Shown here: piece after piece, positions 7,386 through 44,640 of the stretch
Layout: the number at the start of each line of letters is the position of its first letter
Position numbering within the stretch: the stretch's first letter is position 1
Origin: Isoetes taiwanensis
Taxonomy: Eukaryota > Streptophyta > Lycopodiopsida > Isoetales > Isoetaceae
Length of the DNA: 64,000 nt
Assembly (NCBI GenBank): GCA_021234155.1
Contig: JAJEKV010000049.1
Location: 8,466,036 to 8,530,035 of the forward strand
Direction of reading: 5' to 3'
Program-made: the position numbers and the translations under genes
Notes under the pieces: generated by a model
The model's input: only the letters and a program-made list of their open reading frames with translations
Database searches by the model: none
What the model was told of the DNA's origin: nothing

Positions 7386-7583
7386 CAAGGTTACACTTTA
7401 GCTAAGTTAGAGCATAGCTCTAATATTGTGGGATGAGTATGTGTATCATGTACGTACTATGGACCATATGTTAAACATCTTGGAGAGGTAATCTATGCAG
7501 TGATACGGGGAGAGAAGGACGAGTGTGGAACTTTTATGGAGGAGGATGGACGTTTCTTGGCGCACTGCTCCGCCTGCGGCTAG
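7386..7583. other. Unannotated left flank of the gypsy insertion
   Basis: No gene recognised. It ends in GCTAG (7579-7583), the target site duplicated again at 39940-39944, so before the insertion this sequence was joined to 39945 onward. Confidence 0.6.
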
Positions 7584-9220: not shown

Positions 9221-9257
9221 GTGTCAAAGGCGGTGTCAAAGGCGGTGTCGGTGGTAC
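9221..9257. repeat. Duplicated 12-bp unit at the integrase-LTR deletion junction
   Basis: GTGTCAAAGGCG occurs twice in a row, then a third time partly (GTGTCGGTGG). It sits where the integrase frame is fused to the LTR, so the deletion probably formed by slippage or micro-homology at this spot. Confidence 0.7.
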
Positions 9258-20712: not shown

Positions 20713-20882
20713 AAACGGCGGAATGAGTATATAGTACCAACTATATATCATGGAAGAGAATTATTCAAATTTATATTGGCATTATGTATTGAATTGATAC
20801 AATAAACAGTAATCACATCACGAGTGATAACCATGGTTTAAAACAACAGTGATTTCAAATGCAAAATACATAACACAATAAT

Positions 20883-21813
20883 CTAGGAGCTGGGTCCCTC
20901 GTCTTCGTCCATTGGCTGAGGAGGTGGACGGTAACGCATCAAAGTGGCGCTAGGGCTAGCAGAGAGGGCGGCTCGAGCTGCTGCCTCAGGTGGTAAGCAA
21001 GTAGCCAGAGGTGCCGCCACAAGGAGGCGCATGTTAGCGCAGCCCGCCACGTCCCCCAACGCTGCTATAGCCAAATCTCTACGGACCAAAGTAATGGTGG
21101 TGACGTGATAGTCAATCTTCTTATGGCCCGCTGAAGTGGATATGGCTCGGAGCGCCCACCAAGAAGCTTCAGAAGAAGGCCCTAAGTTCTTGGAGAAAAA
21201 TAGCACCTCTCCTTGGTGGAAGGCTGAGAGAAATAATCGGGCCACATGGTTGCCCATTGCCCTAACCTGAGGGTCGGTGGAGGTCTCCGCTTCTTTCTCC
21301 AAGTTGGTGGGGAGCTTCTCCTCCTCTTCTTCTTCCCTCTCATCCCTAAGGCTGACCTTGGTGTCCCAAAGGTCTTCCTCGTCTTGATCCACCTCTCCCA
21401 TAGTGATTTGCAAAGGCGGATCCGAGAGAAGAGACCGTGTCAGGTCCGCAAACTGCTCTTATGGAGGCTGGGGTGTGTCAGTTAGTAAGAACTGACGAAG
21501 TGACAGAAGAGTCTCAACGGGCTCTTGCTCTTCGGGCCGATATGCCAATAGGCTCTCTACTTGTGTAGGTTGCACAACCGGTGTGGTGAAGTCGATGAAG
21601 TCATCTTGGCAATACTCCGCAAGATCATAGAGAATCTCTATTTTCTTGCGGCGGACCCCAGTAAGAACGCGGTAGGCCCACATGATATCCTCAAAGATCA
21701 GGTACTCTTGGTCATTCAAGAGTACTGCAGGGAGAAGGTTTAGCCCTTCGAGCTTAAGGGCTTTCTGTCGGCTGGCAGGGGCTTCTGTAGCAAGTTCCTT
21801 CCATCTTACAAAA
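20883..21813 (-). pseudogene. gypsy accessory ORF B, C-terminal part
   Basis: Continues the frame of 35570-36022 across the copia insertion: one copy of the target duplication joins NEQ to DFVRWKELA. It runs through LLNDQEYLIFEDIMWAYRVL and a glutamate-rich stretch (six E in a row near 21330) to a helical, alanine-rich end with GNHVARLFLSAFHQGEVLFF. One in-frame TAA lies after TDTPQPP (21459-21461). Together the two parts make 463 codons. No known domain recognised. The open length over both parts shows that it was once a selected protein. Confidence 0.7.
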
Positions 21814-21818
21814 TCCTG

Positions 21819-22446
21819 TGTTAGATTAATGAACCCTTAGATAATTCCAATAGCAAGGATGAGACAAACACATGTAAAGTTTAACTCTCCATTCTAGACA
21901 ATAAAATATGTCTTAGTCTTTAAGTACAATAGAATCTAGCACCAAGGAAGCCAAGTTGTGGTCACTAATTCCTTTGTGCACTTATGAACTTCACACAAAA
22001 TCTAAATCAAGTTATGATCAATCAACCAAGCTAGTATGGCCATATTCCGGCATTCCTAGATCTTGATCCGCCTGATTGTCCACACCTTCCTCTGTAGATT
22101 GTGCGTCCCCTTATACTGGAAAGTCTACCGACTTGCCTAAAGATACGGAGTAGATAGGTCTTGCCGTCCATAAATTTAGGTTTCCCAAAATATCCGTTGA
22201 CTTTGACTTCCAAAACCCTAAACCTGCGGGCTGGGGGTATCTGACGTTTTCTGGCGGGTGTAGCAACGTCCGGGTAGTACCAGCCCACCAACCTAATTTT
22301 TTCAAGTATTGACTTCATACTTCCTTATTGACCTACTGCCACTGCTTCTCATAGATCAATATTGCATATGACTTCATGGACCTGCACAATCTTATCATGC
22401 AACATTGTTAAACAATGCATATAATATAACCTGACATATCTTCACA
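21819..22446 (-). repeat. copia 3' LTR
   Basis: Starts TGTTAGATTAATGAACCC and ends CTTCACA. Nearly identical to 34937-35564; the differences I saw are at about 22067, 22075 and 22127. Confidence 0.95.
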
Positions 22447-22455
22447 TCCTCCTTC
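22447..22455 (-). promoter_or_regulatory. copia polypurine tract
   Basis: On the minus strand GAAGGAGGA directly precedes the 3' LTR, in the place where plus-strand DNA synthesis is primed. Confidence 0.8.
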
Positions 22456-23830
22456 ATGTTATATTTATATGCATTATTTTGCCTTTCAGATAATTAAACC
22501 TCCGTTCTGCCAGTGACTTTGTAAGTATATCTGCTAGTTGCTCTTCTGTTCTTAAATATAACATACTTACCAATTTCTTTCTGACAGCATCTCTAATAAA
22601 GTGCATTTCTAGTTCTATATGTTTAGTTGGATTTTTTGACAATGCTATACAACTTGTACTGTCTGACCAAACTTTTGTAGCCAATGGTTGCTCAAACCCT
22701 AGCTCTATAATCAGTCTTCTTTCCCAAACGATCTCTTTTGAGCATAAAGTGGCAGCAGCATATTCTGCCTCTGCACTAGACATGGCTATGGCAGATTGTT
22801 TTTTGCATTTCCAGGATACGGGTGCACCTCCTAACATGACTAGATATCCTGAAGTTGATTTTCTGGTATCTACATCCCCTCCCCAATCTGCATCACAAAA
22901 ACCTTCAAGAATTAAATTATCTGTAGTGTATTTAATTCCTTCTTCAATAGTTCCCTTTAAATATCTTAGGACTCTTTTTGCAGCAGTCCAATGATCTCTA
23001 CCAGGATCAGTATTATATCTACTTAAGATATTAACACTATGTGCAATATCAGGCCTTGTGCAATTGGCCACATATGCTAAGCATCCAATTAATGATCTGT
23101 ATGGTACTGCTTGCATCTCCTCTCTTTCAATTTCATCTTTTGGACACATGCTCTCAGACAATTTACAACTAGGTACTGCAGGAGTTTTGCAAGCTTTACA
23201 ATCTTGCATATTAAATTTCTTCAACATGTCTAGAATTTGTTTCTTTTGAGTAAGCATTATTATGCCTTCTGCTCTATTTCTGCTCATTTCAACTCCTAGG
23301 AAGTTCTTCAACTCACCTAAGTCAGTCATTTCAAATCTTTGTCTTAGCAATTCCTTGCACATATTCAAGCAAGTTGTCCCTTTTGCTACCATAATATTAT
23401 CATCAACATACAATGCTATGATACACCATTCTTCCCCATGCTGGAATTTATACAGATTTCCATCATTATCTAATTTAATAAATTCATGCTCTCGTAGAAA
23501 CCCATCCATACACTTATACCATTCACGAGGAGACTGTTTCAACCCATATACTGCTCTATTGAGCTTCCAAACTTTGTCAATTCCCTGCTCAAACTCGAGC
23601 CCGCTTCATAAAGATTTCTTCTTCTAAGGTTGCATTCAAAAATGCGCCTTTTTACATCCATATGATGTACTTCTAAATCACAAGCATTTGCAATTGCCAA
23701 TAACATCCTAATGCTATTCATTTTCACTAATGGAGAGAAGGTTTCATCAAAGTCCCCGACCTTTTTCTGAGAACCCTTGGGCAAACAATCGGCTTTGTAT
23801 CTAGGTGTCTTCCCATCCACACCTTTTTTT
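22454..23830 (-). pseudogene. copia reverse transcriptase and RNase H
   Basis: The main frame of 362 codons (22454-23542) starts with KQSPREWYKCMDGFL, has the catalytic IALYVDDNIMVAKG (Y-V-D-D near residue 46), then NFLGVEMSRN, the tether block YRSLIGCLAYVANCTRPDIA, and RNase H with FCDADWGGDVDTRKSTSGY and SAIAMSSAEAEYAA, ending at the stop just before the polypurine tract. The N-terminal RT part (KARLVAKG-like CLPKGSQKKVGDFDETFSPL, HHMDVKRRIFECNL) lies in another frame at 23539-23820, so at least one frameshift near 23540-23600 inactivates it. Domain order integrase-RT-RNase H is the copia order. Confidence 0.9.
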
Positions 23831-24592
23831 TATTCTAATAGCCACTTGTTACCTACAATATTTTTCCCACAAGGTCTATCAACAAGCTCATATGTTTTAG
23901 TATTATGAAATGAATCCATCTCCTCATTCATAGCGTTTATCCATTTACCTTTCTCTCTTGAGTTTAATACATCTTCATATGTATTTGGGATTTCGGATCT
24001 AAGTGGGCTAAAATCTCAAATACACTATCCAATTCACCTTCTATATTCTGAATTCTTTTACTCTTACCTCGAGTTGTTCGACCATGGACTAAGGGATCAA
24101 TTTTTATATTTGCTTGTTGCGCCTTCTCTACTTCAAGAGCTCTTTTCTTCTTTTTGAGGTAAGTCAACAATAGTTACTGTGCTCGGATGGCTCAAATTGA
24201 ACTCGGATTTGGCAAATGCACTTCTTCAATCACCTCCTCCTTCATTAATGTTCTCCTCCGCACCACCGATTTGATTTGCTGATCATCTAATATATCATCA
24301 TCATTATCAATCATTTTGATATTAGTCATATCATTTTCAAGATTATCTCGATTAATTATGCTTTCAAAGAACCTCCTTCTCGCTTTATTCTCCTTGATCA
24401 GCACTTTATAAACCCCGAGATTCATCAAAGGTTACATCTCTACTTACCACAATTTTTCTAGTGCTTGGATTATATAACCTAAATGCCTTAGATTGTTTGT
24501 CATATCCAACTAGATATGTAATCATGGCTCATCTAATTTCTTCCCAGCTCTTCAGAATATGAGTGTATGCTAAGCACCCATATATTCTTAGC
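23831..24592 (-). pseudogene. copia integrase-RT linker, degenerate
   Basis: Fragments match the usual copia stretch between integrase and RT: RLYNPSTRKIVVSRDVTF-type sequence near 24420-24480, an acidic segment (24192-24428), and EEMDSFHNTKTYELVD / NKWLLE-like residues near 23840-23930. Several frame changes and a TAG near 23835. Confidence 0.65.
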
Positions 24593-25016
24593 TTATTGTA
24601 CTCTATTGTTTTCCCCTGACCAAAGCATATCGGGATTGCCCCTTGTATACTTTACGGATGGCGGACTATTTTGAATCATGGCATTTGCTTGAACCGCCTC
24701 TTCCCATAGAAAATTTGGAAGCCCTGAGAATTTCAGCATACTTCTCACTGCATTGAGAAGAGTTCTATTCTTTCTTTCTGCAACTCCATTCTGTTGAGGT
24801 GAATATCTACATGTAAGTTGTCGTCTTATTCCCTTAAGTTTACAATATTGTTTAAACTCTCCTGACATAAATTCTCCACCCCTGTCAGACCTCAAACACT
24901 TGATTTTTCTGCCAGTTTCTGTCTCAACTTCATTTACATATTGTTTGAATACTTCCATTGCCTTATGTTTTGTCTTCAAGCAATATATGTGAGTATGTCT
25001 GCTAAAGTCGTCAATT
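24593..25016 (-). pseudogene. copia integrase core, downstream half
   Basis: Reads IDDFSRHTHIYCLKTKHKAM from the insertion point, then VFKQYVNEVETETGRKIKCL, RSDRGGEFMSGEF (second catalytic Asp) and the QQNGVAERKNRTL box with the catalytic Glu. The first Asp (HTDLCGPM) is in the part at 33182-33723, on the other side of the DIRS-like insert. The frame is continuous across the junction when the insert is removed. Confidence 0.9.
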
Positions 25017-25020
25017 CTGG

Positions 25021-25048
25021 GAAGGGACTCGCAATAGACACAAAACCG
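25021..25048 (-). repeat. DIRS-like split repeat B2
   Basis: 28 bp identical to 25908-25935 (starting GAAGGGACTCGCAATAGACA on the plus strand), at the 3' end of the element. Confidence 0.9.
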
Positions 25049-25767
25049 GCCCGATAGATAGGCTTGTCATTCATCACAGCAGCAGTATACAATGGTATGA
25101 AGAATATAGAGGGATAGCCGACCATAGGAACAATATCGGACTACCACACAAACAGAACATGCGCATAGGCAAGATAGAAGGATAATAGCGACAACTTCTC
25201 ATCGGGATGAAAAACCCCGCCCTTTCGGGTTTTCGAGGAAAACCCTAATGAGAAACGGTCGCCAATAGCCTTAAATGTGTTGCCTGGAGAACAAGAGGGT
25301 TGATGGCAAACGCGAATTAAGCAGGACCCCCGAAGACGGCGAAACCGCAGAGGTGGGAGGTGGAGAAGTGCAGGAATTGGGCCGTGGGTGAGAAGAAAAG
25401 AACCGGACCCCCGAAAACGACGAAAGCCTGCAAGCACCACAAAAACCCCTAAAAACACCCGTGAAAAGGTTAGAAAAACAACATGCCTAGCGCCGAGAAA
25501 CCATCCCGTATCAAGAAGGTGCCAAATATGAGCAGAAAAGAACACAACAAAAAGAAATAGCATCACCCCTAAGGTGGAAAGCATCACCCAACGGGTGGAA
25601 AACAATATGTGGAAACATGCAGCATCACCCGCAGATGGAAAAGAATGCGGCAAAATGCCGATGAAAAGAAACCATGATAAGAAGAACACTCAAAGGTGGA
25701 AAACAATAATATTGCATGAACAACAAATGTAAACAAAAAAAGACGCAGACCCCACATAACAGGGTGG
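25049..25767 (-). other. DIRS-like 3' region between A2 and B2
   Basis: Includes a repeated short motif GGTGGAAA(A/G)(C/A)A (25575-25700, several copies) and CGACGAAAxCCGCAGG-type pairs near 25330-25430. No coding signal. In split-direct-repeat elements this stretch lies downstream of the ORFs. Confidence 0.5.
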
Positions 25768-25935
25768 GAAGGGAGGGAAGCAACGGAAATAGAAGAAGGA
25801 GCTGCTGTGAGAAGACGCCGATAACCGAGCCGAAAGAGGAACGGTCCCCGAGATAGAAAGCCCTTCCTCGTATCGTCGATCCGATGGCTCCTGGATCGAT
25901 GCTTCTCGAAGGGACTCGCAATAGACACAAAACCG
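25768..25935 (-). repeat. DIRS-like B1-A2 junction
   Basis: 25768-25903 (A2, 136 bp) matches the 5' terminal A1 at 33046-33181 with few changes; 25908-25935 (B1) matches terminal B2. The two are joined by about four bases, so a circular junction of the two ends would look the same, as expected if this internal copy templates end completion. Confidence 0.9.
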
Positions 25936-25959
25936 CCGACTACCGCAGAACTTCCTTAA

Positions 25960-26970
25960 CTATAAGCCGAAATCACCGAAACCTCCAAGTGTTGAGTAGG
26001 GTCGCGGGCTAACGAGCGAGAATGAGAAGAAGAAGAGCCAACGACCGGAACGCCAAGCAAAGATCATGTGGAACGCCACAAACTGCTTTACAATACCGTA
26101 GGCCGCGACGAGCGCGTAATGTGTACCATACCGAGAGGGATCCAAGCCGATAGCGCGAAGGCAATCCGTCCACCATACACGGGCAGTTGGATAGGATAAA
26201 GGACGCAATGAGGAAGGGGAAGAACTAAAAGCGCCCGCCGCTGACGCGAGGATCGAGGAGATGGTAAGAACCGTAGAAATCGGGGCTGGAGGATAGTGAC
26301 CGGCAGTTACGACGGCAAGCGGCTAAGGAAATCGTGATGGTCAGCGAAAGCAAGTTGGTCACGCTTTAGAACGGGCGAATAAGAACATCAACGTGAGATA
26401 AGGAAAAAGAAAGATCACGCCAATTGAGAGCCAGGCTCCTGGAATGCGAAAAAGCGCAAAGGAAAGCACGACGAGATACGGGCGCTGGGCCAACGAGGAA
26501 AAGGAGCCGAGGGATGCTGCGGCGGAGAACGATAGAACGCATATGCCGAGGCGAGAGGAAGAAAGGTACGAGGAGGGCGGCCCGACGAAAAGAGGACCGA
26601 CGAGCCAAAGATGGTAAAGGTAAAACTAAGGAGAGGGAAGGTTGAAAATTTGATGGAAAAGGAGATGGTCACCGAGGTCGGGCAAATCCATGAGGGCTTA
26701 CATCTGAGGGTGATGAAGAGCGGCAAAAAATGCGGCAACGACAAAGGGAGAAGCAGGAAGATAAGAAACAGTATGTAAACGGCACCAAATAACAAACCGG
26801 CGGAACATAGCAAAATAAGCCGTAAGAGTAGAGGGAGCGCGAGAGGAAAAGACCAGAGGCAAAGTCGAAAGGAACAAGGGGACCTCCTGAGGAGTGAGTA
26901 AGCGAAAAATAGCTGCCAAAAACAACATAAAACCATGTTAACTTCATTCAAATTGACAACGAAAAACATA
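25960..26970 (-). pseudogene. DIRS-like tyrosine recombinase
   Basis: Downstream of RNase H (reading minus). The N-terminal SAM-like region is around 26690-26950 in shifted frames. Near 26390-26440 is SLALNWRDLSFSLSHVDVLI, which follows box I; the arginine itself is lost to a shift. The C-terminal domain at 25960-26208 has PLSYPTARVWWTDCLRAIGL, DPSRYGTH with the box-II histidine, and AWRSGRW near the place of the usual GRWRS. A shift after GTH hides the H-x-x-R arginine, and the catalytic tyrosine cannot be fixed. In an intact copy this enzyme would integrate the circular DNA. Same strand as RT and RNase H. Confidence 0.65.
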
Positions 26971-27800
26971 AAGAGCTACATGACGCCGACACCCAATAAA
27001 CGAGGCCGACATATGAGGTAATAAAGCCAATGAAAATGCATCAAAAAACATAACATCCTTAATAAAAGATGCCCATGCCGCTCCCGTCCAGAGTAAGGGC
27101 CACCAAGGTGCAGAAGGCCAATGAAGAACCACGAGCGTAATACGAGCACGACACGCGGCCGCATGATGCAAAACGCGAGGAACGACTGAGGGCGGCGGAA
27201 AACAAAAATTGTTAAAGAGGTGCCAATCATAAGTAAAAGCATCAGGGGGAATGCGATGTGGATATGCGAACCGAGTATTATAAACGGGAAGCTTGTGGTT
27301 AAGGGGAGAAGCAAAACGATCAACATGATGGGGGCCCCACAAAGAGTCAATATAGCGAAAACACCACGGGGCAAGTGCAAACTCATCAGATTGAGGAAGG
27401 CGAGAAAGATAATCAGCCCACTCGTTTTGGGAGCGCGGAATCCACACAGGTTCTAAGGAGATGAAAAAATGAAAACAAAGGAGGAAGATTTCCAAGGTGA
27501 GAAAATGAATATCGGGCGAAGAAGAACCCCCTTTCGGGAGAATGGTTGCAACATTTAAATTATCGCCACGAACAGTGACGAGACGGGTATGGAGGAAAGG
27601 CAAGGCCGAGCGCAAAACCTGATAGAAAGCCAAGAGTTCGCGCCAAGTGGAAGAACGAGAAAGGTCCGACTCGGAAAAAAGGCCAACAAAATCCGGGGTC
27701 CGACCCGGGAGAAGGAGCCAAACCAAAAAAGAATCCGGCCGAAACCAAGGACGGCGGAAGGACGCGCGGCTGAGGAAATAGGGGCTTAAAACTCAAAGAA
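26971..27800 (-). pseudogene. DIRS-like RNase H domain
   Basis: The longest clean frame of the element (26944-27726, 260 codons). Features: SSTWRELLAFYQ (Glu of the active site), TVRGDNLNVATIL (Asp), SLEPVWIPRSQNEWADYLSR (final Asp), then WGPHHVDRFASPLNHK, YNTRFAYPHRIP, FTYDWHLFNNFCFPPP and HWPSAPWWPLL. The post-RNase-H block with HVDRFAS and WPLL is the signature of DIRS/Ngaro elements, not of LTR retrotransposons. The fragment at 963-1280 matches its second half. This domain removes the RNA template during cDNA synthesis. Confidence 0.85.
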
Positions 27801-27849
27801 GAGGCGATAGATTCCCATAACACAATTTCCATACCAACCAAAGAGGACA

Positions 27850-28340
27850 AAGAAATAGGAGCATCCCAAGGAGAAGGTCAAAGAAGACGATAGGAAAAGA
27901 AGGTTAAAGCGAAACAAGGGAACCAAAACAATGCGAAGGATTGGAGAAAACCCAAGAAGCTGCAAGGTGACGGGATGTAAGACGAGAGGAGGAAAGAAGG
28001 GAAGAGGAAAGGCGAAAAAACTTGGCAATTTCCTGAAGAAAGGCAAATAATCATAGATACATCAAGGAGAAAACCAAGGAAAATAACGGCGTGACAAACA
28101 CGCATTTACATTTAGGCCAAAGAATGAGAAACCCGCAGATTGCAAATCGGAAATGATGCGATATTGAAGAGAACAAGGGTCATCTTTGGCCGAAGTTAAA
28201 CGAAAAATCATCCATATAAGGAGTGCAACGGATAATCGGGCGGCAAATGGCGGACTAGTGGGCGATTAATTTGGTGAAGACCAAGGGAGGCAAGACCAAA
28301 AGGAAGCATGGTGAAGACAAAAATTGGTACTCAAACCCAA
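27850..28340 (-). pseudogene. DIRS-like reverse transcriptase, palm region
   Basis: Near 28290-28325 the minus strand reads LPFGLAS followed in the next frames by VFTK/LI-like and PLVRHLP residues, and the catalytic YMDDFS at 28204-28218. After further shifts come VIFLGFLLDVSMI (about 28050-28090) and a hydrophobic C-terminal part. LPFGLASAP...YMDD-FLGF is the DIRS-type RT pattern. Single-base frameshifts occur every 30-60 codons, so it is dead. Confidence 0.75.
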
Positions 28341-29180
28341 AACCCAAAAAGTGTGATGAGGAGGCCGATAGGAACATGATGGTAAACGGATTCAGATCTA
28401 AGGTAAAGAGAAAATCCCGGGTTGAAGGATAGCCAAAGCATCGAGGAGGAAAAAAAGAAGAAACGGAAAAGAGGAGTTAAGATAGCGCCAAAAATCAAAC
28501 GGAACTTATGGTCGCTTTGGGCAATGAAGAAAGGGGAAGAGGGAACCGCAAGACCAAGACGCGAAAAGGTCCCGGATGGCGCGAAGGAAAAGGAATATGC
28601 AAGGATAGAAAGAAAGGTTGGGGCAAAAAAAATGGTTGAGGTGGAGGACCCTGGCCCAAAGAGCATAGCCAACCGATCCAAGACAATACCGGGAGGATTG
28701 GCGTAAATAGAGAAAAAGGTAACCCATAAGCAAGAAGACTTAAAACTCAAGGTAGCATAATAGAATGTGGAGCCAATCGGATCAAAGGGAAGATGGGGCA
28801 AAGAAGAGGAAAAAACTTGACAATCGTTAAAATAGGAAAATAATATCCTTTATTAATGATCAAAAGGAAATACAACACATAGTGAAAATCAATAAAACCC
28901 TCACGAAGACCAATGTGGAGGCGTAGCGGGGAGGGGGGAAGGCGAATGTGGTGAAGAGGACAAAGCCATTAAAGGAAGGGTGAGGGGGATGAGACCAAAA
29001 GTGGAGGAGCATGGTGAAGACAAAAAAACAATACTCAAACCGAAAACCCAAAAAGTTGATGAAGAAGAGGAAAAAGGGCGATGATCGGAACATGATGGTA
29101 ACCGGGCGAATTTCCCGATGCGAGATCTAAGAAAAGTAAAGGAGAAAAATTGCAAAGGTTGAAGGATAAAGAACAAAGCA
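28255..29180. repeat. Direct duplication inside the DIRS-like RT region
   Basis: The stretch AAGCATGGTGAAGACAAAAA with following ACTCAAAC and CCAAAAAG, GGAACATGATGGTAA and AGGATA-AAGCAT blocks occurs at about 28303-28445 and again, slightly longer, at about 29008-29185. Offset is about 700 bp. The second copy also carries the shifted end of an RT frame (28860-29093). Confidence 0.65.
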
Positions 29181-30299
29181 TCTCCTCCGTCCGCCAAACG
29201 CTTACCTTCTTCCAAAGAACGAAAAATCGATCTGAAATACCCCCAAAATAGAGGCGCCAGAATCCATCGAAACCTGGGGTCCAAATCAAACTCACTTATG
29301 GAGTCACCCGGGCCAAAAGGCAGTCGAGCCCCGCCACAAGTCTTGGTCAAAAACCGGGTCCGGTCAGATAACCATCGATGACCGAGGCCTCAAGGGTGGC
29401 GAAGCCTCACCGTAATTAACGCACGAGAAAAGGAGCAACAATGGAAGAGAAAAGAAGAGAAAAAGAGGGGCCAAAAAGAAAAAGAAAAGAAAAGAAAAGG
29501 AGCAAGAAAGGCCTGGAGACCAAAAGGAGAAAATAGCATAAACCAATAAAAACAACATGAGGAGAAACCAATCGGGTCCCAAGAACTGCTCAGCGAGGAA
29601 CCGCCCAGCAAAGACGAGCGAAGCAAGAAAAGCAAAAACTAAAACCCAACTCGAAAAAAACTGGCTATAAAGAACAAAAATAATGGAAAGAAGAACCCGC
29701 CCCGCCTACCAGAGGAAAACAAATCGCAAAAAATGAAAACCAGCCTACGAACGAAGTCGGGTCCCGCCCACCGGTGATCACTAAACAACAATGTGAAGAA
29801 AAGAAAGGAAAAGAAAAGAAAAAAAAAGAAAAAAAACCCAAGAAACAATAAGATGAAACCAATAAAAAAAAACATGAGAAGAAAGAAAAAACCAGACAAT
29901 AAAAACTAAAACCCAAGAAATGTCTATAAAGCCTAAAGAAGAAAAGAAAATGCAAAATGAATAAAAGCATCCCGCGAGTGAAAGGCACTGGAGAAAAATA
30001 GTAAAGAACAACAATAAGATGAAGAGGAAAAAAAACAATATAGAAAAAGAAAGAGAAAAGAAACAAAAAGCATCCGGCATTAGTAAAGCGTCATAGAGAG
30101 CAGCACGAAAAACACAATATAGAAAAGAAAGAGAAGGGAAACACGGTACGACAGAGTAGAATAACAATGGCGATTGCAAGAAACCCACAACGTAAACCAA
30201 AAAACGAAAAGAAAAACACGGCCAAAACCATAAACCGAAAACATAATCCAAATAGCCCAACAACCGTAGAGTAGTGCAGAGCAACGAGAAAAAGACAGG

Positions 30300-30830
30300 G
30301 GAAAAGAGAAAAACCGAAACCACCATGGGAAAACACCAACATTACCAGATGAGGCTACATAGAAAAAACCCACATGGGCAAGTCATGAAAAACGGAGACG
30401 TAAAAAAGTATCCTGAACCCAAGCAAGAACCCCCGACAAAGCCCTTAGTGACATCGAGATCCCAAAGAAAACACAATTGCCAAGGAGAAAAATCCGAAAC
30501 CATGCTGGGAGAACACGAAATCTAGAAGAGCATGCCACATATAAAAGACCCAATCAAAAGATATAAAAGGAATAGATAAAAAGATATACCCAATGCACAA
30601 TGCCACCACAAAATCCCCTAGGTGCAACGATATCCAATAAAAAACCACAATTGCAAAGGAAAAAAATCCGAAACCACTATGGGAAAATACAAAAGTGAGA
30701 AATCAAGGCACGTATAAAGAATCCATGGGCATGGGCAATTAGAACGAAAAACGTAAAAAGATCATAAGAAAGGATACCCATAACCAAATGAGAACCATAT
30801 GACAAAAAACCTTAAATGCCGTATACAGAA
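30300..30830. repeat. Three degenerate tandem units inside the DIRS-like element
   Basis: AAATCCGAAACCA(T/C)xxTGGGA(G/A)AA and the sequence after it (ACATATAAAxGACCCA, CAATTGCxAAGGA) recur at about 30309, 30490 and 30664, a period of about 175-180 bp. Confidence 0.7.
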
Positions 30831-32453
30831 TACCAACAATAAATGAAACGGGAACCCCCAACATGGCACAAAGAAAAGCACATAAAACCCATATGAAAAT
30901 TGCATTATGCGCATGTTAAAGGTGCAAAAAACATGAAAAAGACAAATGTTTTATTCAAGATTATTCATCCAAAGGTGTCAACATCTAGAAAAGGCCAAAA
31001 ACTGAGCAAAACCGTGGTCCCGAGGCAAGGACAATCACGCAATGATTCCCAACGAGATCGCCGGATAAGTGGGAAGAAACTGCGGGGGGTACTCCGTCAT
31101 AATGAGAAAAAATTCACGCAACTGAATCGGGCGCAAAGATGTAAAACCCCAAAGCAAAATGACGTCCCCCAAGAAACGAGCACGAGCGGGGTCGAGAAGC
31201 TTATAGGAGCGAAAAACTCGACGGACAGAAGGAGAAAAAGCGGCATAGAGACGAAGCGCCCGGAAGAACTCAGCAGGCCAGTCAACGTCCGCCCGTGCAA
31301 CCTGTAATGCATTGCTAGCGGAGGGATGCAAAGCATGCAAATGAGAGGTATAAAGGTGGTGAGTAGTCATCGGAATCTCAGGAGGTGCAAACGGAGGGAA
31401 AAATCCAAGAGGGAACATCTGAGTGGAGCAAAGGGGGCAAGGGAACGGCATCGGAGGCCGAAAAGAAACAACCAAGGAACGGAAACGATAGGGGAAACAA
31501 AATCCGGTGGAAAAGGAGCAATGGCAGAAGAGATTAAAAAGGGAACGAACAGGAACAAGAAGAAAAAACGAACGGCCAGAAACCTCATGCAAGCAGGATG
31601 AAAAGAGAAGCATGGATCAGAAAAATGGGCGGCCCAAATCAAGTAAAAATAGCTGGCCTCAGGAAAAGAGAGCCCAAAATTACAGCAGAGGAGCGGTGGG
31701 TAGCGAAGGAAACAAAGCGTAGATAGGGCCAGAGGTCTGAGATCGGCCAAGCAGAAGCAAAGAAACCAGCATCTATCGGCATGCCAAAGGGTATCAATCG
31801 GTTACCAAGGAGGAAAGCGGCTATCAAGGAGGGAAGCGGCGAGAGAGACAAGCAGAGATTGGGCGGAAAAGGAACCAGAAGGAAGAAAAACAGAGACAGA
31901 GAGGGGAAACGGAAGCTAAGGAGCAGCAAGACAAGCCAAGCTTGGCGAAGAAAGCTGAAATCACGAGGCAATCAGAGAGAGAACCTGGCAAGGCCGAACA
32001 GCATATGGGAGCAATGCGGGGAGGCAAACGAAAAGCCAAAAAGACCAATGGCAGGATCTGCGGACAGTCTCAAGCCACAGAAAAGAATTAAAGAGAAGGG
32101 AAACCGTACCCAATAAAGGATGAACAAGGCGAAACAGCAGAATGAACAGACCCGATGGAGCAAAAACCGAGCAAAAGACCCAACAAAGAGCAAATCGCAA
32201 GCAAATCGAATCAACACAGCAAGGCAGAAAACCGAGATCACGCTAAATCATGAGGACACCCAAACCGTAAACATGGCACAAAAATAGAGCAGCCGATGCC
32301 AAGGAAACAACCTCCACACAAACGGAAAACAACAAACAAAGAACATGCGAATACAGGGAACAGTAAAACAAAGAAAACTTACAGAATCCAGGCGAATCAA
32401 CCCGCGAATAGCGCAACAAGCGGAAAAAAGAGAACAAAGAAATCCACGCGAGC

Positions 32454-32610
32454 AATGGTGATAAAACAAGTGAATACATCAACAATAGAACAAAGAAATC
32501 GACGGGAATCATGGAGCTTCTGCATGCAAGCAATGGTGATAGAACAAGTGAATACATCAACAATAGAACAAAGAAATCGATAGGAATCATGGAGCTTCCG
32601 CATGCAAATA
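32454..32610. repeat. Two 78-bp tandem units
   Basis: AATGGTGATAxAACAAGTGA starts at 32454 and 32532; both units run on to GGAATCATGGAGCTTC(T/C)GCA with about three differences. A weaker third copy follows near 32810. Confidence 0.85.
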
Positions 32611-33045
32611 CCGCAACAAAGTGGGCGAACAAAGAAAACGTTAGAATAAAAAAAAATTGACCCGAGTAACAGAGAAAATTGCAGACATAATGAGTAGGAT
32701 GCAACATGCGAATACCGCACAAGCGGAAAATCATAGAACAAGGAAGCTAGAAGATGACCGATGATCCCACAGGCGAAGATATCAACAATAAACCAAAAGA
32801 AATCGTCAAGAAGCATGGTGATTGACATATAATTACTTCCACAAGCCGTGCGAACACGGAAAACAACAGAGCAAAGAAATCTACGAGAATACACGTGAGA
32901 TATTCCAAACATAACAAGTAGAAGAGGAGGAGACGAGGGCGTACCTTCCAAAGAAGGGTAAGCAAGCTCGCGAGGAAGATGCCGAGAGTGAGGACGTGGA
33001 GATAGGAACCGAGGGAGAAGCCCAAAAAGAATTCCATTAGTCGAA

Positions 33046-33181
33046 GAAGGGAAGGAAGCAACGGAAATAGAAGAAGGAGCTGCTGTGAGAAGACGCCGAT
33101 AACTGAGCCGAAAGAGGAACGGTCCTGATATAGGAGCTCGTCCCTTCCCAGAATGTCGATCCGATGGCTCGGATCGATGCT
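33046..33181 (-). repeat. DIRS-like split repeat A1 (5' end)
   Basis: 136 bp matching 25768-25903. The outermost part contains the near-palindrome GATCCGATGGCTCGGATC, which could form a hairpin at the element end. Confidence 0.9.
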
Positions 33182-33723
33182 ATTAAGGTCATGAAATATC
33201 TCTTTCCAGATAGCCCTGTTATATTCATTGGTCCACACAAATCAGTGTGAACTAAATCCAGCAAACCTTGTGCTCTTTTGTTAGATCTTTTAAAGGCTAG
33301 TCGATTATGTTTGCCAAGTGCACATCCTACACATATAGTTTTTCCAGATTGATTCAGATCTGCTTCTATGAATCCTTTCTTACATAATAACTCAATGACT
33401 TTGGAGTTTGCATGACCAAGCCTTCCATGCCATATATCAACTGATGGCATAGTTACAAGATTCAAACAGGTTGGTTCACAATGTATGTTATCAAGACCAA
33501 ATAGATTCCCAATTCTTCTGCCAATAAACTTCACTTTATTTTCATATAACACATTACATTGCAATCTTTCAAACACAACCTTATAGCCAAGATCTACTAA
33601 CTGCGCAATGGAAATTAAATTCCTTACAAGACCGGGCACACACATAATACTTTTTCCAAGATAACTTTCTTCCCTTGCAAAATCAAACAACTCAAGCATT
33701 CCACTATCTTTAATTTGCTTCAA
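33182..33723 (-). pseudogene. copia GAG-pre-integrase and integrase start
   Basis: Minus strand: MCVPGLVRNLISIAQLVDLG, then VDIWHGRLGHANSKVIELL, CVGCALGKHNRLAF (HHCC zinc finger), LDLVHTDLCGPM (first catalytic Asp) and SGKRYFMTLI at the point of the DIRS-like insertion. All hallmark residues are present; the frame ends only because of the insert. Confidence 0.9.
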
Positions 33724-34213
33724 CTCTCCATTCCCGAATCATACATGTCCTTTTTGCTCCCCTTTGCAATTTTTCAACAATCTTGAGCTTGAAGCTCTTG
33801 ATTTCTCAGCTCTGAATCTAAAATGAGAACATTCTTGTTATGAGATTTTTCCTTTGAAAAACAATTGGTTGAGATATTTACCTCTATATCTTCATCTAGT
33901 TCTTCCTCCTCGATTCTTTAACCACATTCAAGCTAGGACTATTTCTTCCTCCTCTCAAGCTCTTGCCCTCAAAATATTTCTTATCTTTTCCTTTATTTCT
34001 TTTTGGACTTGGACACTTGTTTGCCATGTGACCCTTTCCTTCCACAGTTATAACGGACTATTTCTTTATCTTGCTTGGGACAATTTATCTTCAAATGTCC
34101 ATAATCGTTACATTTAAAGCATGGACCTATCTTCCCTTTATCATAAGATTTCTTACCTTTTTACCAAAGATACAAAGACTTCGCCTCATCATCATCAAGC
34201 ATCCTTTCCTTGC
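33724..34213 (-). pseudogene. copia gag zinc knuckles and protease stretch, degenerate
   Basis: Two CCHC knuckles: CFKCNDYGHLKINCP (about 34085-34130) and YNCGRKGHMANKCPSP (about 34015-34065). Several shifts follow; no DSG/DTG protease motif could be found, so the protease is lost or badly decayed. Confidence 0.75.
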
Positions 34214-34903
34214 TCAAACTCTCATGCGAATCATCTTAATGGCATGCTCCTTGGACACGGCAACATTCCTCAACAGAGTAGCAAGTTGTGCATTGTGAGA
34301 TCTGACTCTAGAAATAGCTAATAATTGGTAGTCATCATTAAGAACAACCCCTGCACCTTCAAGGTCAGCAATAATAGACTCAAATTTCTCTAAAAATTGC
34401 GTAATATTGTCTCTTTCATAGAGCTTTAACTTTCTTAGCTGTTTTTCCAAAACAACTATTTGAGATGATGATTTAATCTCATAATTTTCAATCATATACT
34501 TCCACATGTCTGCTGGAGATTTGCCTCTTAATTTTAACTTAATCACAGTACCAACCTTGCTGCTGATTATTGATTGAGCTTCCATAATTTTTGTTTTCTC
34601 ATCAGCACTTGTCCTCAGGGTGGTACCTCCACCAACACTTGCACTAGCAGCTCCTCCTGTACCTGGAGATCCAGCCTGTGCACCACCTGCAACAGAGCTA
34701 GCACTAGCAGTAGGTCCTCCTGTACGATCACCACTAGAATCCCCAGTGCCTGCTGCTGTACCAGCTGTATTTACATCACATAAATACCATAGATTTTCAA
34801 ATTCCAATACCTCCTTTATACTTTGCTTCCATAACTGAAAGCCACTATCTCCTTTAAATATCTCAATGGAATTAAGGAGATTTGCTCCAAAGCGTGTTGA
34901 CAT
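34214..34903 (-). pseudogene. copia gag capsid-like region
   Basis: 230 codons starting MSTRFGANLLNSIEIFKGDS and FQLWKQSIKEVLEFENLWYL, a G/S/T/A-rich spacer, then KIMEAQSIISSKVGTVIKL, SPADMWKYMIENYE and ITQFLEKFESIIADLEGAGV. This is the UBN2/retrotran_gag pattern of plant copia elements. The start is close to the primer site, as expected. Confidence 0.9.
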
Positions 34904-34922
34904 CCTGCACCTGGAATTTTAA

Positions 34923-34935
34923 GGCTCTGATACCA
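34923..34935 (-). promoter_or_regulatory. copia primer binding site (tRNA-Met)
   Basis: On the minus strand TGGTATCAGAGCC, complementary to the 3' end of plant initiator tRNA-Met, one base inside the 5' LTR. Confidence 0.95.
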
Positions 34936-34936
34936 A

Positions 34937-35564
34937 TGTTAGATTAATGAACCCTTAGATAATTCCAATAGCAAGGATGAGACAAACACATGTAAAGTTT
35001 AACTCTCCATTCTAGACAATAAAATATGTCTTAGTCTTTAAGTACAATAGAATCTAGCACCAAGGAAGCCAAGTTGTGGTCACTAATTCCTTTGTGCACT
35101 TATGAACTTCACACAAAATCTAAATCAAGTTATGATCAATCAACCAAGCTAGTATGGCCATATTCCGGCATTCCTAGATCTTAATCCGCCTTATTGTCCA
35201 CACCTTCCTCTGTAGATTGTGCGTCCCCTTATACTGGAAAGTCTATCGACTTGCCTAAAGATACGGAGTAGATAGGTCTTGCCGTCCATAAATTTAGGTT
35301 TCCCAAAATATCCGTTGACTTTGACTTCCAAAACCCTAAACCTGCGGGCTGGGGGTATCTGACGTTTTCTGGCGGGTGTAGCAACGTCCGGGTAGTACCA
35401 GCCCACCAACCTAATTTTTTCAAGTATTGACTTCATACTTCCTTATTGACCTACTGCCACTGCTTCTCATAGATCAATATTGCATATGACTTCATGGACC
35501 TGCACAATCTTATCATGCAACATTGTTAAACAATGCATATAATATAACCTGACATATCTTCACA
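34937..35564 (-). repeat. copia 5' LTR
   Basis: Partner of 21819-22446, TG...CA ends, followed by TCCTG (35565-35569), the duplicated target. Confidence 0.95.
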
Positions 35565-35569
35565 TCCTG

Positions 35570-36022
35570 CTCATTGACGACTTCGTCATCTTCTGGGTCA
35601 GGAGGTAGAGGCGTAGAAGAATGCTCAGCAGGAATCTCCTCATCCTCTATGTACTGGTCCATAATGATGGCCAGTGCAAATCGGGCCTCAAAACAAGTTT
35701 CCCGATCTATTGTAGCAATAGGGAGGTCGGTCCCTCGCCGTCGGATGCCTTTGATGACGTTGCGGGCATGCTCATCACCCCCTAACATCTGGTGCAGGGT
35801 GTGAAAGTCAAGATAGAGCTGCTCATCGTCTTCATTGCAAATGCATGCAGGTACAATCTCCTCACAATAGAACTGAAGGAAAGCAGCATAATCTGGATGG
35901 GCCTGCATGTTGGAGATAAGATCTACCTGCTGAAGCAGGTAGGGGTGAAGAAGATCAAAGGGAACCGCAGGGTCCCAATGCTCTCCGTCCAAATACCACT
36001 GCTGCAGGGTTGGGCGAGCCAT
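35570..36022 (-). pseudogene. gypsy accessory ORF B, N-terminal part
   Basis: Starts MARPTLQQWYLDGEHWDPAV at 36022, runs through a helical region (LLHPYLLQQVDLISNMQAH, CFEARFALAIIMDQY) to an acidic, proline-rich stretch interrupted by the copia insertion after NEQ. An upstream in-frame ATG at 36094 would add 24 residues of low complexity; the ATG at 36022 fits the rest better. No known domain recognised. It is about 240 bp downstream of the H3 fusion ORF on the same strand. Confidence 0.7.
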
Positions 36023-36263
36023 GAGGGGTGAAGGCGCAAAGGAGGAGGAAGAAGGCGCAGAAGCAAGAAGGGAAAATGAACCCCTAATGGCCAAAAAGGG
36101 GTTTTATACTTTTTGGCACGTTTCCCGAAATTATTATTAAAAAGACTTATTTACTTAATAATAATTTCCAAAAAAAATATTTTTATATTCACAACCCCAA
36201 AAATGGGACTAGTACATGGATAAATTACAAAAATTGTACAACAGAAAGGAAACGGTCGCCTAA

Positions 36264-37592
36264 TCATCTAAAATCCCCTCGGATCCTTCGTGCCAAGTGA
36301 AGGTCCTTGGGCATAATAGTAACCCTCTTTGCGTGTATGGCGCAAAGGTTGGCGTCGCTCAAGAGTTCAATAAGATAAGCCTCGGCAGCCTCCTGTAGGG
36401 CGAGAACCGCAAAAGCTTGAAATCTTAAGTCGGTTTTGAAGTCTTGGGCGATCTCCCGCACAAGTCGCTGGAAGGGAAGCCGGCGGATCAATGGCTCGGT
36501 AGTCTTCTGATACTTACGTATCTCTCGAAGAGCTACCGTGCCAGGTCGATACCTATGGGGCTTCCGCGGCTTGAGGGTCGCCTTAAGCGACGGAATGGAT
36601 TTGCCGTCTGTCAAAGGATGCTTTGTGCGCTCAACGATCTGCTCCCTTCTCTGAGCCGATGTCTTCTTGGCGATTGTTGCATCCTGCTGCAGTCGGGTCT
36701 TATAGTGCACCCCACTCTTAACAGGTCTGGACTTCGTTCTCTTCAATCTCCGGTTACCCCGCTCGTTCGTCTGCTGTGGGTCTGCCGATTGGTTAACGTC
36801 GACAGGGTTTTCCTGGGGGTTAACGTTCTGAGCCGCACCTAGGTCCTGCTGGCCAGCATCAAGATTCTGCTGCTGCTCCACCTGCTGGTAATCCGGCTGA
36901 TCCCCCTGCTCATTCTCGCTCTGGTGGCTATGGAGGTCCTCCCCTTCCTTTTGGAGCCGCTCTCGCTCTTCGGCCCGGGCCTCTCTCTCCAGACGCACTT
37001 GTGTGCGCCGGGCAATTTCAGTATGGTACCGGTCCGGTCGTGCCCGCATATCTTCTTGGATGGATTCTAGGTGGCATTGGCTAAACCGTGGCGGAACATT
37101 TTAAAAAATGAAGCTGTTAAGGCCTTCATTCCAAGAAAAGGTAGGAAGGTTAAAGTATTCTTGGTATGTGAGTATACGACCCTTTCCCAAATAATAGAAG
37201 CGGTCCATCCTTATGTCCGGTGGAGCACTGGCTATCTGGTGCAAGTCTTCCACTCTCGCAAGATGCATGATCCTCTGGGCTTCATTCCGACTAAGCTCTG
37301 CAGGGTCGTCATCTGGTCCTGGCGAGGGATAAAACTTAACCACAGCCCATGCACGGTCCGGCTGCTCCACGAGAGTGTAGTCCTGACCAGCTTCATTCAA
37401 CTTGAGGAGGAAACGCTAGTTGAAGTGGAAGATAGGGTAGGGGACTCTTCGGCCCTCGACAAAGTGCTTGACGAAAAGATTAAGAATGGTATCTATCATC
37501 GGGTCCTCGTCAGCAAGATGCTCAACTAGCGCGGCAAACAACTGAAATATGTTCAGCTTCTTCAAGTCCACGGTTAGCTTAAAGCGCGGCAT
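36264..37592 (-). pseudogene. gypsy accessory ORF A: fusion protein ending in a histone H3 fold
   Basis: A single frame of 443 codons from MPRFKLTVDLKKLNIFQLFA, broken only by TAG (37416-37418) and TAA (37101-37103). Residues 1-60 are helical, 65-165 hold NEAGQDYTLVEQPDRAWAVV and similar sequence I do not recognise, 182-330 are charged and glutamine-rich. From about residue 341 it is histone H3: [75 protein letters not shown]. This is the complete histone fold (alpha-N to alpha-3, about 100 of 135 residues). Tyr at H3 position 41 and Leu at 90 are the plant H3.3 variants. The modifiable N-terminal tail (K4, K9, K27 contexts) is absent. Confidence 0.85.
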
Positions 37593-38287
37593 GGTTGTAC
37601 TTAGCAAAGAACAGCAAGGAAGGAGGAAGGTGAGGCGCTCAGGCAAGGGTGGACGGCACTCAAGAGTAAATAAGGGCGCTGAGGCGTAGGGCAGATGCAA
37701 GGGAGGCGTGGAGGTCAGCTATGGCGAGTTTGGAGCTTAAGTCCGGCGGCTATGGCAGAAAAGGGTGCTCAGAGAAAACACACGCCCAAAAATATATTTC
37801 AAAATTCAAATTTTAACTTTTAACTTTTTATTAAAATTTTCAAAAAAATATTAATTTTTTTTAAAAAAAATTTAAACGGGCGCGTATAAAAATACCGCGA
37901 CCGTATGGGGCGCTGCGTTGCTTATACGGCTTTTATTTTTGAAAAGAAACACCTCTGAGTAAGGCAGCGCCCCTTTCCATTTTTCGGCGGCCTGTTGTCT
38001 TTTTGACCTCGGGAGACGTGCCCCCTAGGGTATTTGAGAGGTGCCCGATCCATTGGAGCCGTTTTCGCCTTCATCCGAGCTACCTACAAAAAGTTATAGC
38101 TCCTCGAAACTTGGGCCTTCCAGTCGGCCCAGACTTCGCAAGGAATTGCAGTCTATTACATTAACCTAGCACTAAATCAAACATCAAAGACTTAAACACT
38201 CACTCTTGCTTAACTCTCTCTCTCCTAACTACCGAACTAGCGAGTTAGGGTTTGGTCAGTGCTATGATTTCGAGTAACCGAAATCAC
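37593..38287. other. gypsy 5' leader
   Basis: Between primer site and ORF A. Includes an extremely AT-rich patch (37790-37875). The part near the primer site resembles 43960-44246 (AAAGTTATxGCTCC, AGTGCTATGAT, and the ATCACGGCTCTGATACCA end). No gene seen. Confidence 0.6.
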
Positions 38288-38300
38288 GGCTCTGATACCA
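38288..38300 (-). promoter_or_regulatory. gypsy primer binding site (tRNA-Met)
   Basis: Minus strand TGGTATCAGAGCC, one base inside the 5' LTR; same primer tRNA as the copia element. Confidence 0.95.
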
Positions 38301-38301
38301 C

Positions 38302-39939
38302 TGTGACGCTCCCTGAACATATACGACCCTCGGCCGTATACATACGGGGACTTTCCCCTCCCATGGCAACCAACTTGCCATAAGCAGGGCCCTCCGTCTA
38401 ACTCGGGCCGTCTATAATAAGACGCTCAAGTGAAGGACACAGAGGGGTCATTCGGCCCACGCCTTCAATGGGCGCCTACGTCGCGGAAACGTGAATACAA
38501 GGGTTAGCACACAACATAAATCACATATAAATAACCACCACGAAGGGTGGCACATCCATCCAAATACCAACGGCAAAGAATATGCATCTAAACCTAAGAA
38601 AACACCCCAAACCCCAGGTTCTACCCCGGTTCCGACTCCTGTGAGGATAGACTGACGGCTCGGCCACAAGAGATCAGCAGACAGAGGTATAACCTGGCGT
38701 TGGCTGGTATAGAACATCGGCTAGGGTGGTCCACTCCATCCGCCCCTCCTGTGCACACTTTGCAGATGGGTCAATTCACGCTATGGCGTCGCTATAGCCT
38801 TCCGGAGACGCAGGCTCGAGGCATCACCCTGCTGAGCCTACTCCATGGTTCATGAAGTCCCGGTCCGATGAGGCAGGTCAGGGAAGCGTCCCCTTCCAGA
38901 ATCACAGTGGCTCCATGGGTGAGCTAGAGAATACGTGCCGCATCAGCGACCCCCGCATCCGTACCCGACTTACTCACCCTAAATCTACTCAAAGTGCAAG
39001 GTGCCCCATACGGGTCACACCTCTACACCCAGGGAGTGTCAGACCCATACCCGGCCCTCTATGTGACCGGCTATCAGGTCTAGCTCACTATAGGAGTCTC
39101 AGGAGCCTTTTATGTTCGTGCAAGACCCCACCTCCACTTCACCACTGTGTTCCTTGTCTGGTGCTAAGCCAGTACCATAGCATCTATGACCCGGTGGGCT
39201 CTTGTGCACAGGCCGCATCTAACGGGTAATACAGGGCTCTATCTAGGAGCATACTACAATAAATGGGCTCAGAGGTCTCTATCCCCCCTTAATTCCCCCA
39301 TTTCCAGAATAATACTAGGCAAAGAACCATCAATCCATCCTTTGAAAACAATCCCAGAATCAAAATATAAAGAGAACGAACTTACCTTTACAATCAAGGG
39401 TTAGTTCCTACGAGTATAACACAGAGAGAACAGACAACCAACCCAACATGTGCCCAAAAGGGGCGCTATCCTAGAATTCACAACTACACTAGCCACCCAC
39501 CTGTGTTTCTGCTGGACCCGTTATCGTTGGGGATTTCCATCTTCTCGGTCCGGGTGTTCAGCTCTGGTCACAAGGGTGGCGTCCAACTGCTCAAGGTGGC
39601 GCTCAGTTCTGGTCACAGGGGTGGCGCTCCACTGCTCTTGGTGAATAGTGGCTGATACGGGGGTGGTGATCCACCTTATTGGTCTCAATTAGCATTACCA
39701 TGTTAGCCAATCGATGGTGGCCACGTGGCGCCTTCCCAAGCCATAATTAACTTAATTATGCCTTTTTAATATGAGTTCCTTAATTATAGGTTATTATCAT
39801 TAATAATTAAATTAGCATAGCTAATTTAATCCCTTTTAAGTCAACCCCCTAGGTTACCATACCCCATGGTGGCGTATCTGTACTGGGTGACGTGTCAATA
39901 TATTTATATGTATACCGTATAAATACTTGGAATGTCACA
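38302..39939 (-). repeat. 5' LTR of the gypsy element
   Basis: 1638 bp with TGTGAC...GTCACA inverted ends. Followed by GCTAG (39940-39944), the target duplication. Frames inside are not genes. Confidence 0.95.
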
Positions 39940-39944
39940 GCTAG

Positions 39945-40980
39945 GGCGGCAACAGGGGAAGGAGGCCGCCCTCCCATCCCCTCTTTCCGGCACTGCTGCA
40001 GACCTTCTTGTAAACCAGATAGTACAATCCGGTGCTAGTGGGGTTTGCCGATGTGTCAGAAGATTTTCTTCCTCAAAGAAATTGCTGATTTGATTCTGGA
40101 GCAGCTTCAAGGCGGTCTTGTGGATTTGGCCTGGCAAGCCACTAACGTGGTATTCTGCTCTCAATCTTTTTTAAGAATGATGATTTGTTAAGCAAATCAC
40201 ACTGAAAGGGCGCATAGTCTATAAGGTGGGGCAGAATTGAAGCCGAATTCATAAAGATAGCAGTTTTGGGTCTGTTTGGCAGTCTTTTTAGTTGGATCTT
40301 CTATCCATTTGGCTTTTTCCTCTCCTCTTGCTCTTTCTTGCTAGCGGAAAGACTAGGGATGTTTTCTTGAAAGGATCAGAGTAAACTCTTGATCTTAAAT
40401 TTACAGTTCTAAAACAGGATGTTAGATTACTTGAGATTGTCGAGCTAGGGATTTGAATGTTTCCAGAAAGACGCTTCCATATCATCCAGATATCATAAGC
40501 CAGAATTAGGGAGAGTTCTGGTGGCTGGGCTGTGTGTCTAGCATATACAGGTTGGCTGACTAGAGCATCCCGACAATGCAGCATCTTACTTAATCCCTCA
40601 TTTGGTTGTAAAGCTGTTGATTTTGTTCACAGATTGAAGCATATTCGCTTCCCTAAGCAGTGCGGGAGACTGTTCAGGTTACTTCACATCTTCGTTCTAT
40701 TCATTTCTATTTCTGCAAGAGGTTTTTTGGAGCATTCAGGATTGTCTGCAGTTTATGGAAAATGGGGATCGATTCCTGTAGTATTCTATTCAACTGAGAA
40801 GATGTTGATACTGTAGTATTAGTTAGATGAAGAAGAAGTTGAGAGAGACTCATGAGTACTGTAAATGCAGATATAATTCAGATCCATGTGGGATCCTATA
40901 CGCTTAAATTATATCTGATCCATGAGGGATCTTTGTATTGTAATTCTTCCAATCTGATCAATACAAAAAGTTCTTACCTT

Positions 40981-44246: not shown

Positions 44247-44248
44247 TT

Positions 44249-44640
44249 GTGACGCTCCCCGAATCTATCCGATGCTCCAACGTATAAATATGGGAAATTT
44301 CCCTCCCATGGCGACTCCATCACCACAGAAAGGCCCTCTGCCTGACTCAGACCACTTGTGATGGGCAAGTGTCTGGGTGAAGGACACGGAGTTGTCATTT
44401 GTCCCACGCCTGCTATGGGAATCCTATATAGCAGAAGCGTACATACATGTTAGCACCTAGCAACAATACAAATAAATAACATGCCACCACCACGAAGGGT
44501 GGCTCATCCATCATCAATACGAGCAACAAGATAATACCAACATAACATAGGAAATGCACCATAAATGAGGATTCTACCCCGGGCTCAGACTCAAGGGGGT
44601 CAACTGACAGTCCGAGCTTCCTCCAGCTGTTCGTCTCCAT
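44249..44640 (-). repeat. LTR fragment, same family as 5580-5965
   Basis: Starts TGTGACGCTCCCCGAATC after the primer site and follows the relic at 5580 block by block to GGGGGTCAACTGACAGTC. The rest of the LTR is missing; a different gypsy piece follows. Confidence 0.85.

Follow-up and report, generated by a model that had tools for sequence, protein, structure and literature searches.

A chromovirus family in Isoetes taiwanensis carries an open reading frame that ends in a histone H3 fold

The stretch of DNA analyzed here, referred to as the window, comprises 64,000 nucleotides of the Isoetes taiwanensis genome (assembly GCA_021234155.1, contig JAJEKV010000049.1, positions 8,466,036 to 8,530,035). 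It contains a long terminal repeat (LTR) retrotransposon of the Ty3/gypsy (chromovirus) type, and the first open reading frame (ORF) of this element, ORF-A, ends in a histone H3 fold. The whole insertion, recognized by its LTR pair, a target duplication and gag-pol domains, spans 7584–39939 (-), nested insertions included. Its 5' LTR (38302–39939 (-)) and its 3' LTR (7584–9229 (-)), assigned by comparison of the pair, are 92.8% identical, and a 5-bp target duplication, GCTAG, borders the element at 7579–7583 and 39940–39944. One base past the 5' LTR lies the primer-binding site TGGTATCAGAGC (38289–38300 (-)), which we take to be of the tRNA-iMet (initiator-tRNA) type; it was exact in 20 of 30 copies, carried 1–2 mismatches in two and was not found in eight. 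It is followed by a leader (37593–38288 (-)) and by ORF-A (36264–37592 (-); 443 codons). An earlier note on this DNA had described a minus-strand ORF, located between the 5' LTR and gag, that ends in H3. Its position and its H3 fold, which is gap-free, were borne out; in the window copy, though, the frame is not a single open one, being broken by two in-frame stops, and two further frames, ORF-B and ORF-C, intervene before gag.

ORF-A comprises an N-terminal domain (N-domain; about 180 amino acids, 37050–37592 (-)), a glutamine-rich linker, a basic segment of about 64 residues (36564–36755 (-), limits approximate) and the H3 fold (36264–36563 (-)), which covers H3 residues 37–135 and is followed by the stop codon. 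The longest ATG-started piece in the window has 261 amino acids (36264–37049 (-)), and over roughly its last 106 residues it aligns to plant histone H3.3 with no gaps (phmmer, E 7.1e-51). The Pfam Histone profile scored 144 bits on the C-terminus (cutoff 26.4), and, as judged by alignment, the fold is a complete and gap-free H3 with its presumed interface residues. The net charge computed for six homologous copies was +15 to +17 for the basic segment, +8 to +11 for the fold and -12 to +1 for the linker. No relative of the N-domain was found in Pfam (outside the fold), phages, IMG/VR or PHROGs; in IMG/VR, 43 pattern matches were obtained and none was confirmed. ORF-B and ORF-C had no relative in Pfam and no convincing one in PHROGs, ORF-B had no convincing match among solved structures (best E 0.67), and Rfam gave no match at the gathering threshold within 36000–40000.

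The Isoetes taiwanensis assembly (1,658,258,908 bases in 1110 sequences) was searched for further copies. With the whole ORF-A stretch, 40 matches were scored of 1649 candidates, all 82–100% identical and 38 of them covering at least 1,238 of the 1,329 bases. At least 155 matches were obtained with the 261-amino-acid protein when 146 of 9681 candidates were scored; many of them lie within frames of 440–485 codons that are open, and stops occur in many others. Linkage to the element was determined for the 30 best matches (L009–L038), the window itself among them. The LTR end homologous to that of the window was present upstream of ORF-A in 29 of the 30 loci (exception L015), and ORF-B was present downstream, likewise in 29 (exception L031). 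In all three copies traced further downstream, ORF-B was followed by ORF-C, gag-pol and then the 3' LTR. Other genomic copies that tie the H3 domain to the LTR family, the absence of which would have spoken against the earlier note, therefore exist. ORF-A has been inherited together with the element, and since 29 of the 30 copies show the linkage, a separately inserted H3 pseudogene was ruled out. The linkage was also followed from the side of ORF-B: for 53 of 97 distinct ORF-B matches, an H3 match in the same orientation was listed no more than 6 kb upstream. Stretches of 651 bp each were fetched for 20 of the remaining 44, and 19 of these contained H3 sequence, in some cases short or decayed.

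The order of gag, protease, reverse transcriptase, RNase H and integrase between LTRs was found with Pfam in the window and in copies L050 and L051. Both copies scanned for the integrase chromodomain (PF00385) contained it, with 39.4 and 38.1 bits (cutoff 25.1). The element is therefore a chromovirus in which gag is preceded by three extra ORFs, and H3 forms the end of the first. In one copy, the LTR ends showed no difference across the 312 bp compared, and in two others their identity was 98% and 90% across 249 alignment columns; thus, the activity of the element is in part recent.

Three versions of the H3 element exist: family 1, which includes the window copy, family 2 (nine loci read) and family 3 (at least 94 matches; 89 scored of 12910 candidates). 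The order of N-domain, linker, basic segment and H3 fold is common to all three. Between families, compared by five representatives, the parts ahead of the fold are 28–35% identical and the folds 79–89%. ORF-B sequence lies downstream in five of the nine family-2 loci. A piece of the leader of 75–87 bp is 74–76% identical in three of the nine family-2 copies, while its flanks are not, and shorter or weaker matches to it occur in two further family-2 copies. The gag-pol DNA of one family-2 and one family-3 copy (L101 and L102) is 80–87% identical to that of family 1. Since gag-pol is far closer between the families than the parts of ORF-A are, we infer that 5' modules and gag-pol were exchanged between elements by recombination. 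Rearrangement was also seen in five copies (L046, L047, L084, L085 and L086) without the N-domain, which hold an open 236-codon linker-plus-H3 frame; these were picked for their open frame, and other loci have similar starts, some with stops. In the five derivatives, a 32–35 bp scar of ORF-B replaces the N-domain. ORF-B, or ORF-B together with ORF-C, is reduced or lost in some of them, and in two, L047 (with stretch L083 beside it) and L086, gag-pol follows directly after H3. At a separate locus, L072, a very diverged H3 stretch lies upstream of ORF-B (36% identity, E 1.7e-8), which is either the result of decay or a fourth version.

The host genome holds hundreds of copies of the fold. A search with H3 yielded 15 canonical genes and 135 other matches among 150 scored of 9031 candidates. 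One H3 motif was present at 660 exact places, host genes included, as compared to one place for the reversed control. In 92 of the 100 places listed, the last two bases of this motif are the start of a threonine codon, as in families 2 and 3; the motif leaves out family 1, which has alanine at the threonine position. The control search with H4, in which every one of the 69 candidates was scored, yielded 16 full-length genes, and a further 27 matches were partial. A general spread of histone genes was thus ruled out, since no comparable amplification of H4 was found.

Selection was assessed with an alignment of 38 of 41 family-1 loci, three having been dropped for broken motifs or frames. The pooled ratio of nonsynonymous to synonymous substitution rates (dN/dS) was lowest for the fold (0.056; 703 pairs), followed by the N-domain (0.122; 136 pairs), the basic segment (0.168; 703 pairs) and the linker (0.318; 133 pairs). 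On the same 136 pairs from 17 full-length copies, the fold reached 0.054 as compared to 0.122 for the N-domain. When copies were bootstrapped, the ranges were 0.040–0.068 for the fold and 0.105–0.137 for the N-domain, with the fold lower in 500 of 500 replicates. The five N-domain-less derivatives gave 0.115 on 10 pairs, which lends weak support as they were picked for an open frame. Thus, the fold has been under purifying selection across a large family, as the earlier note had supposed from the window copy.

Fifteen residues of the fold are invariant in all 38 copies, namely R42, T45, R49, K56, R72, K79, R83, F84, Y99, H113, K115, R116, K122, L126 and R129. Five more (R52, C110, T118, D123 and I130) are kept in 37 copies and two (R63 and R69) in 36, and K64 is replaced by Arg in all 38. 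The residues counted, from R42 to I130, are presumably contacts to DNA, to H4 or between H3 and H3'. Relative to plant H3.3, family 1 shows fixed or near-fixed changes, namely L60P, K64R, S86A, H87F, V101I, G102E, F104L, E105S, T107A, I124L, R134F and A135R.

The part of ORF-A ahead of the fold differs from the H3 tail. Replacement of the tail by a glutamine-rich, charged segment had been proposed; a glutamine-rich linker is indeed present, while it is the conserved basic segment that stands directly before the fold. The motifs ARTK, ARKS, TKAA and KSAP were found before the fold in none of the 38 family-1 copies. Hence, the usual tail motifs are gone in family 1, and ORF-A was ruled out as a canonical H3. 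That the basic segment is a remnant of the H3 tail (e.g., RTKHPSTGGK) was not established, its similarity to the tail being overall not above that of shuffled sequences. In family 1, the score of the proximal part was reached by 21.5 of 300 shuffles in the median (range 2 to 220, 38 copies), and for ten copies of families 2 and 3, 106–458 of 500 shuffles reached the tail-similarity score. A CENH3 identity, for which we assume a diverged fold with a long loop 1 to be characteristic, was ruled out by the gap-free alignment to H3.3 with 84–89% identity.

Tyr41 and Leu90 had been taken to point to an H3.3 source. This argument was rejected because each of the eight host H3 genes that were read, out of 15 detected, has both residues; seven of the eight have A31/S87 and one T31/H87. 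Nor is Tyr41 family-wide, as 29 of the 38 aligned copies have Phe41. ORF-A has no clear equivalent of H3 residue 31. Residue 87 is Phe in family 1 (38 of 38 copies) and in those family-2 copies that were read, and it is His, as in host H3.3, in the three distinct family-3 loci read of four fetched; the fourth, L098, was not matched by the search motif and was therefore left out of this reading. His87 in family 3 favours an H3.3-type source, and the captured H3 was thus probably of H3.3 type. In a comparison of 36 copies of the element with the eight host genes, the proportion of synonymous differences (pS) was 0.84–0.92, i.e., saturated, and that of nonsynonymous differences (pN) was 0.13–0.14. 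From saturated synonymous sites next to a low pN, the capture is judged to be ancient. Ala107 and Leu124, where the host has Thr and Ile, occur in the copies compared of all three families (Leu124 in 35 of 38 family-1 copies), and these common residues point to what was probably a single capture of host H3.

As to function, a chromovirus lineage would have captured a host H3 coding sequence and fused it to an element-specific N-terminal domain. The ORF-A protein may then pair with host H4 and join (H3-H4)2 tetramers and nucleosomes, in which the N-domain and the basic segment would be displayed where the H3 tail would otherwise be. Most likely, unintegrated or newly integrated element DNA would thereby acquire nucleosomes unable to bear the normal H3K4, H3K9 and H3K27 marks, and silencing could be delayed, or the chromatin of the element could be marked for its own proteins, the integrase chromodomain among them. 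We rate the chances that the protein enters nucleosomes with an effect on element chromatin as about even. The placing of element products on chromatin, mimicry of histone deposition and a block to silencing marks, all raised in the earlier note, are conceivable roles. The full version, according to which an element-made H3 variant forms element-specific nucleosomes, its replaced tail blocks or redirects silencing marks and the integrase chromodomain possibly reads them, amounting to a self-made chromatin address system, is put forward tentatively.

Several observations weigh against this interpretation. The H3 fold of ORF-A is deduced from its 84–89% identity to host H3.3 alone, and the AlphaFold models of ORF-A and of its N-domain were poor (mean predicted local distance difference test scores of 39.9 and 46.3). 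Some family-1 changes in the fold are not mild (L60P, G102E and E105S). The copies were chosen for similarity or open frames, which lowers dN/dS, and pair by pair the ratio was lower for the fold than for the N-domain in 52 of 73 computable pairs (of 136). One of the 73 ORF-B copies examined had no H3 in the fetched stretch, only the N-domain. TGGK, as in the H3 tail, stands before the fold in 36 of 38 family-1 copies. In addition, the basic segment of five of nine family-2 copies (L087, L088, L092, L095 and L096) contains ARK[ST], the context of H3K9 and H3K27. This could be a histone mimic or chance, and the proposition that the protein cannot be methylated may fail for family 2.

Four other explanations were considered. 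The ORF-A protein might be a tether, its H3 part binding the nucleosome assembly machinery or joining chromatin and its N-domain holding complementary DNA (cDNA), Gag or integrase, so that new copies are steered to sites of active histone exchange. Those full-length open copies that were read do encode N-domain and H3 as a single polypeptide, and the integrase chromodomain is a device of similar purpose. However, targeting is then already served by the chromodomain, and the five N-domain-less derivatives keep the H3 frame open, though they were picked for this; we regard a tether as rather improbable. Packaging, in which the basic H3 part would compact the RNA or cDNA of the element within the virus-like particle, a role that viral histones may also have, without entry into host nucleosomes, would fit the positive charge of basic segment and fold and the placement of ORF-A ahead of gag. 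Charge would suffice for this purpose, and the near-total conservation of residues, including those we take to be H3-H3' and H4 contacts, would not be needed, so that packaging appears unlikely. It is also quite unlikely that the protein acts as a decoy that sequesters H3 chaperones or histone-modifying enzymes and thereby weakens silencing by the host, without being stably deposited itself: a conserved fold that has lost the normal tail motifs in family 1 would be in line with this, yet a decoy need not keep the DNA-contact residues R83 and F84, which never vary among the 38 copies. Finally, many single copies have decayed, the window's included, as would a functionless host H3 fragment carried along as a passenger, and this reading is highly improbable because it is contradicted by the selection test (dN/dS about 0.05); the existence of three deeply diverged versions and a copy number in the hundreds likewise speak against it.

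A literature search restricted to open-licence PMC papers yielded no LTR retrotransposon described as carrying a histone. The one true precedent it returned is H3L, an H3-like gene borne by a hAT DNA transposon in the fungus Pyrenophora tritici-repentis (PMC3538342). As in Isoetes, a transposable element there carries and multiplies an H3-like ORF with an altered N-terminal tail (PMC3538342). The Isoetes element differs in being an LTR retrotransposon, in its fused N-domain and in its copy number, which runs into the hundreds; it also comes in three diverged versions, and its fold is strongly conserved. Membership in the hAT H3L element was rejected, as LTRs and gag-pol were found and not a hAT transposase between terminal inverted repeats. 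With chromoviruses, the Isoetes element shares the domain order, LTRs, primer-binding site and chromodomain. Chromoviruses are described as reading histone marks via the chromodomain (PMC9289625), whereas the Isoetes element additionally encodes a histone. Plant LTR retrotransposons with additional ORFs also have an extra ORF kept by the family, and an orchid Gypsy element of AlkB type is reported to have an extra host-like domain (PMC9289625). In the Isoetes element, by comparison, the captured domain is a core histone, and the word "histone" is absent from the main text of a review of such retrotransposons (PMC7264820). Viral histones likewise represent the use of a host-like histone by a mobile or viral genome. 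They include bracovirus H4 and giant-virus histones, and bracovirus H4 is reported in host nucleosomes in a review, the main text of which does not contain "retrotranspos" or "retrovir" (PMC9145170). Viral histones belong to DNA viruses, whereas the Isoetes element is a retrotransposon.

If the proposed function holds, a retroelement would influence the chromatin of its host by contributing a histone of its own, and not through the reading or writing of marks. Many copies, some of them young, would allow tests of expression, protein and chromatin in the living plant. The family also offers a natural experiment on the H3 residues that have to be retained in a foreign histone, with the fold near-fixed and the rest of the ORF diverging.

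The remainder of the window element is fragmented. ORF-B is split by a nested copia insertion (21819–35564 (-); LTRs 99.4% identical, target duplication TCCTG), which is not part of the H3 element system, into a first part at 35570–36094 (-) and a second at 20883–21818 (-). From its ATG, ORF-B has 433 amino acids in copy L061, and frames of approximately 420–550 codons are open in most of the ORF-B matches listed. ORF-C, located by comparison with other copies, lies at 20247–20740 (-) with approximate limits and is a 172-codon open frame in three other copies. The first part of gag (19248–19698 (-)), also identified by comparison, is cut by a later insertion; the homologous frame in L051 contains Ty3_capsid and Retrotrans_gag (Pfam). 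The end of gag, protease, reverse transcriptase, RNase H and the start of integrase follow at 9136–12246 (-), assigned with Pfam and by comparison. The C-terminus of integrase, including the chromodomain, is missing from the window copy as compared to copies L050–L052. Between the two gag pieces, ORFs are present at 12528–14055 (-), which presumably resemble a MULE-type transposase with a SWIM-like motif. An ORF at 26944–27726 (-) had no Pfam match at 0.01; we take it to resemble the reverse transcriptase/RNase H region of DIRS-type elements. A second LTR-like pair, at 44247–44621 and 5579–5955, shows 86.8% mutual identity and is distantly similar to the LTR of the H3 element.
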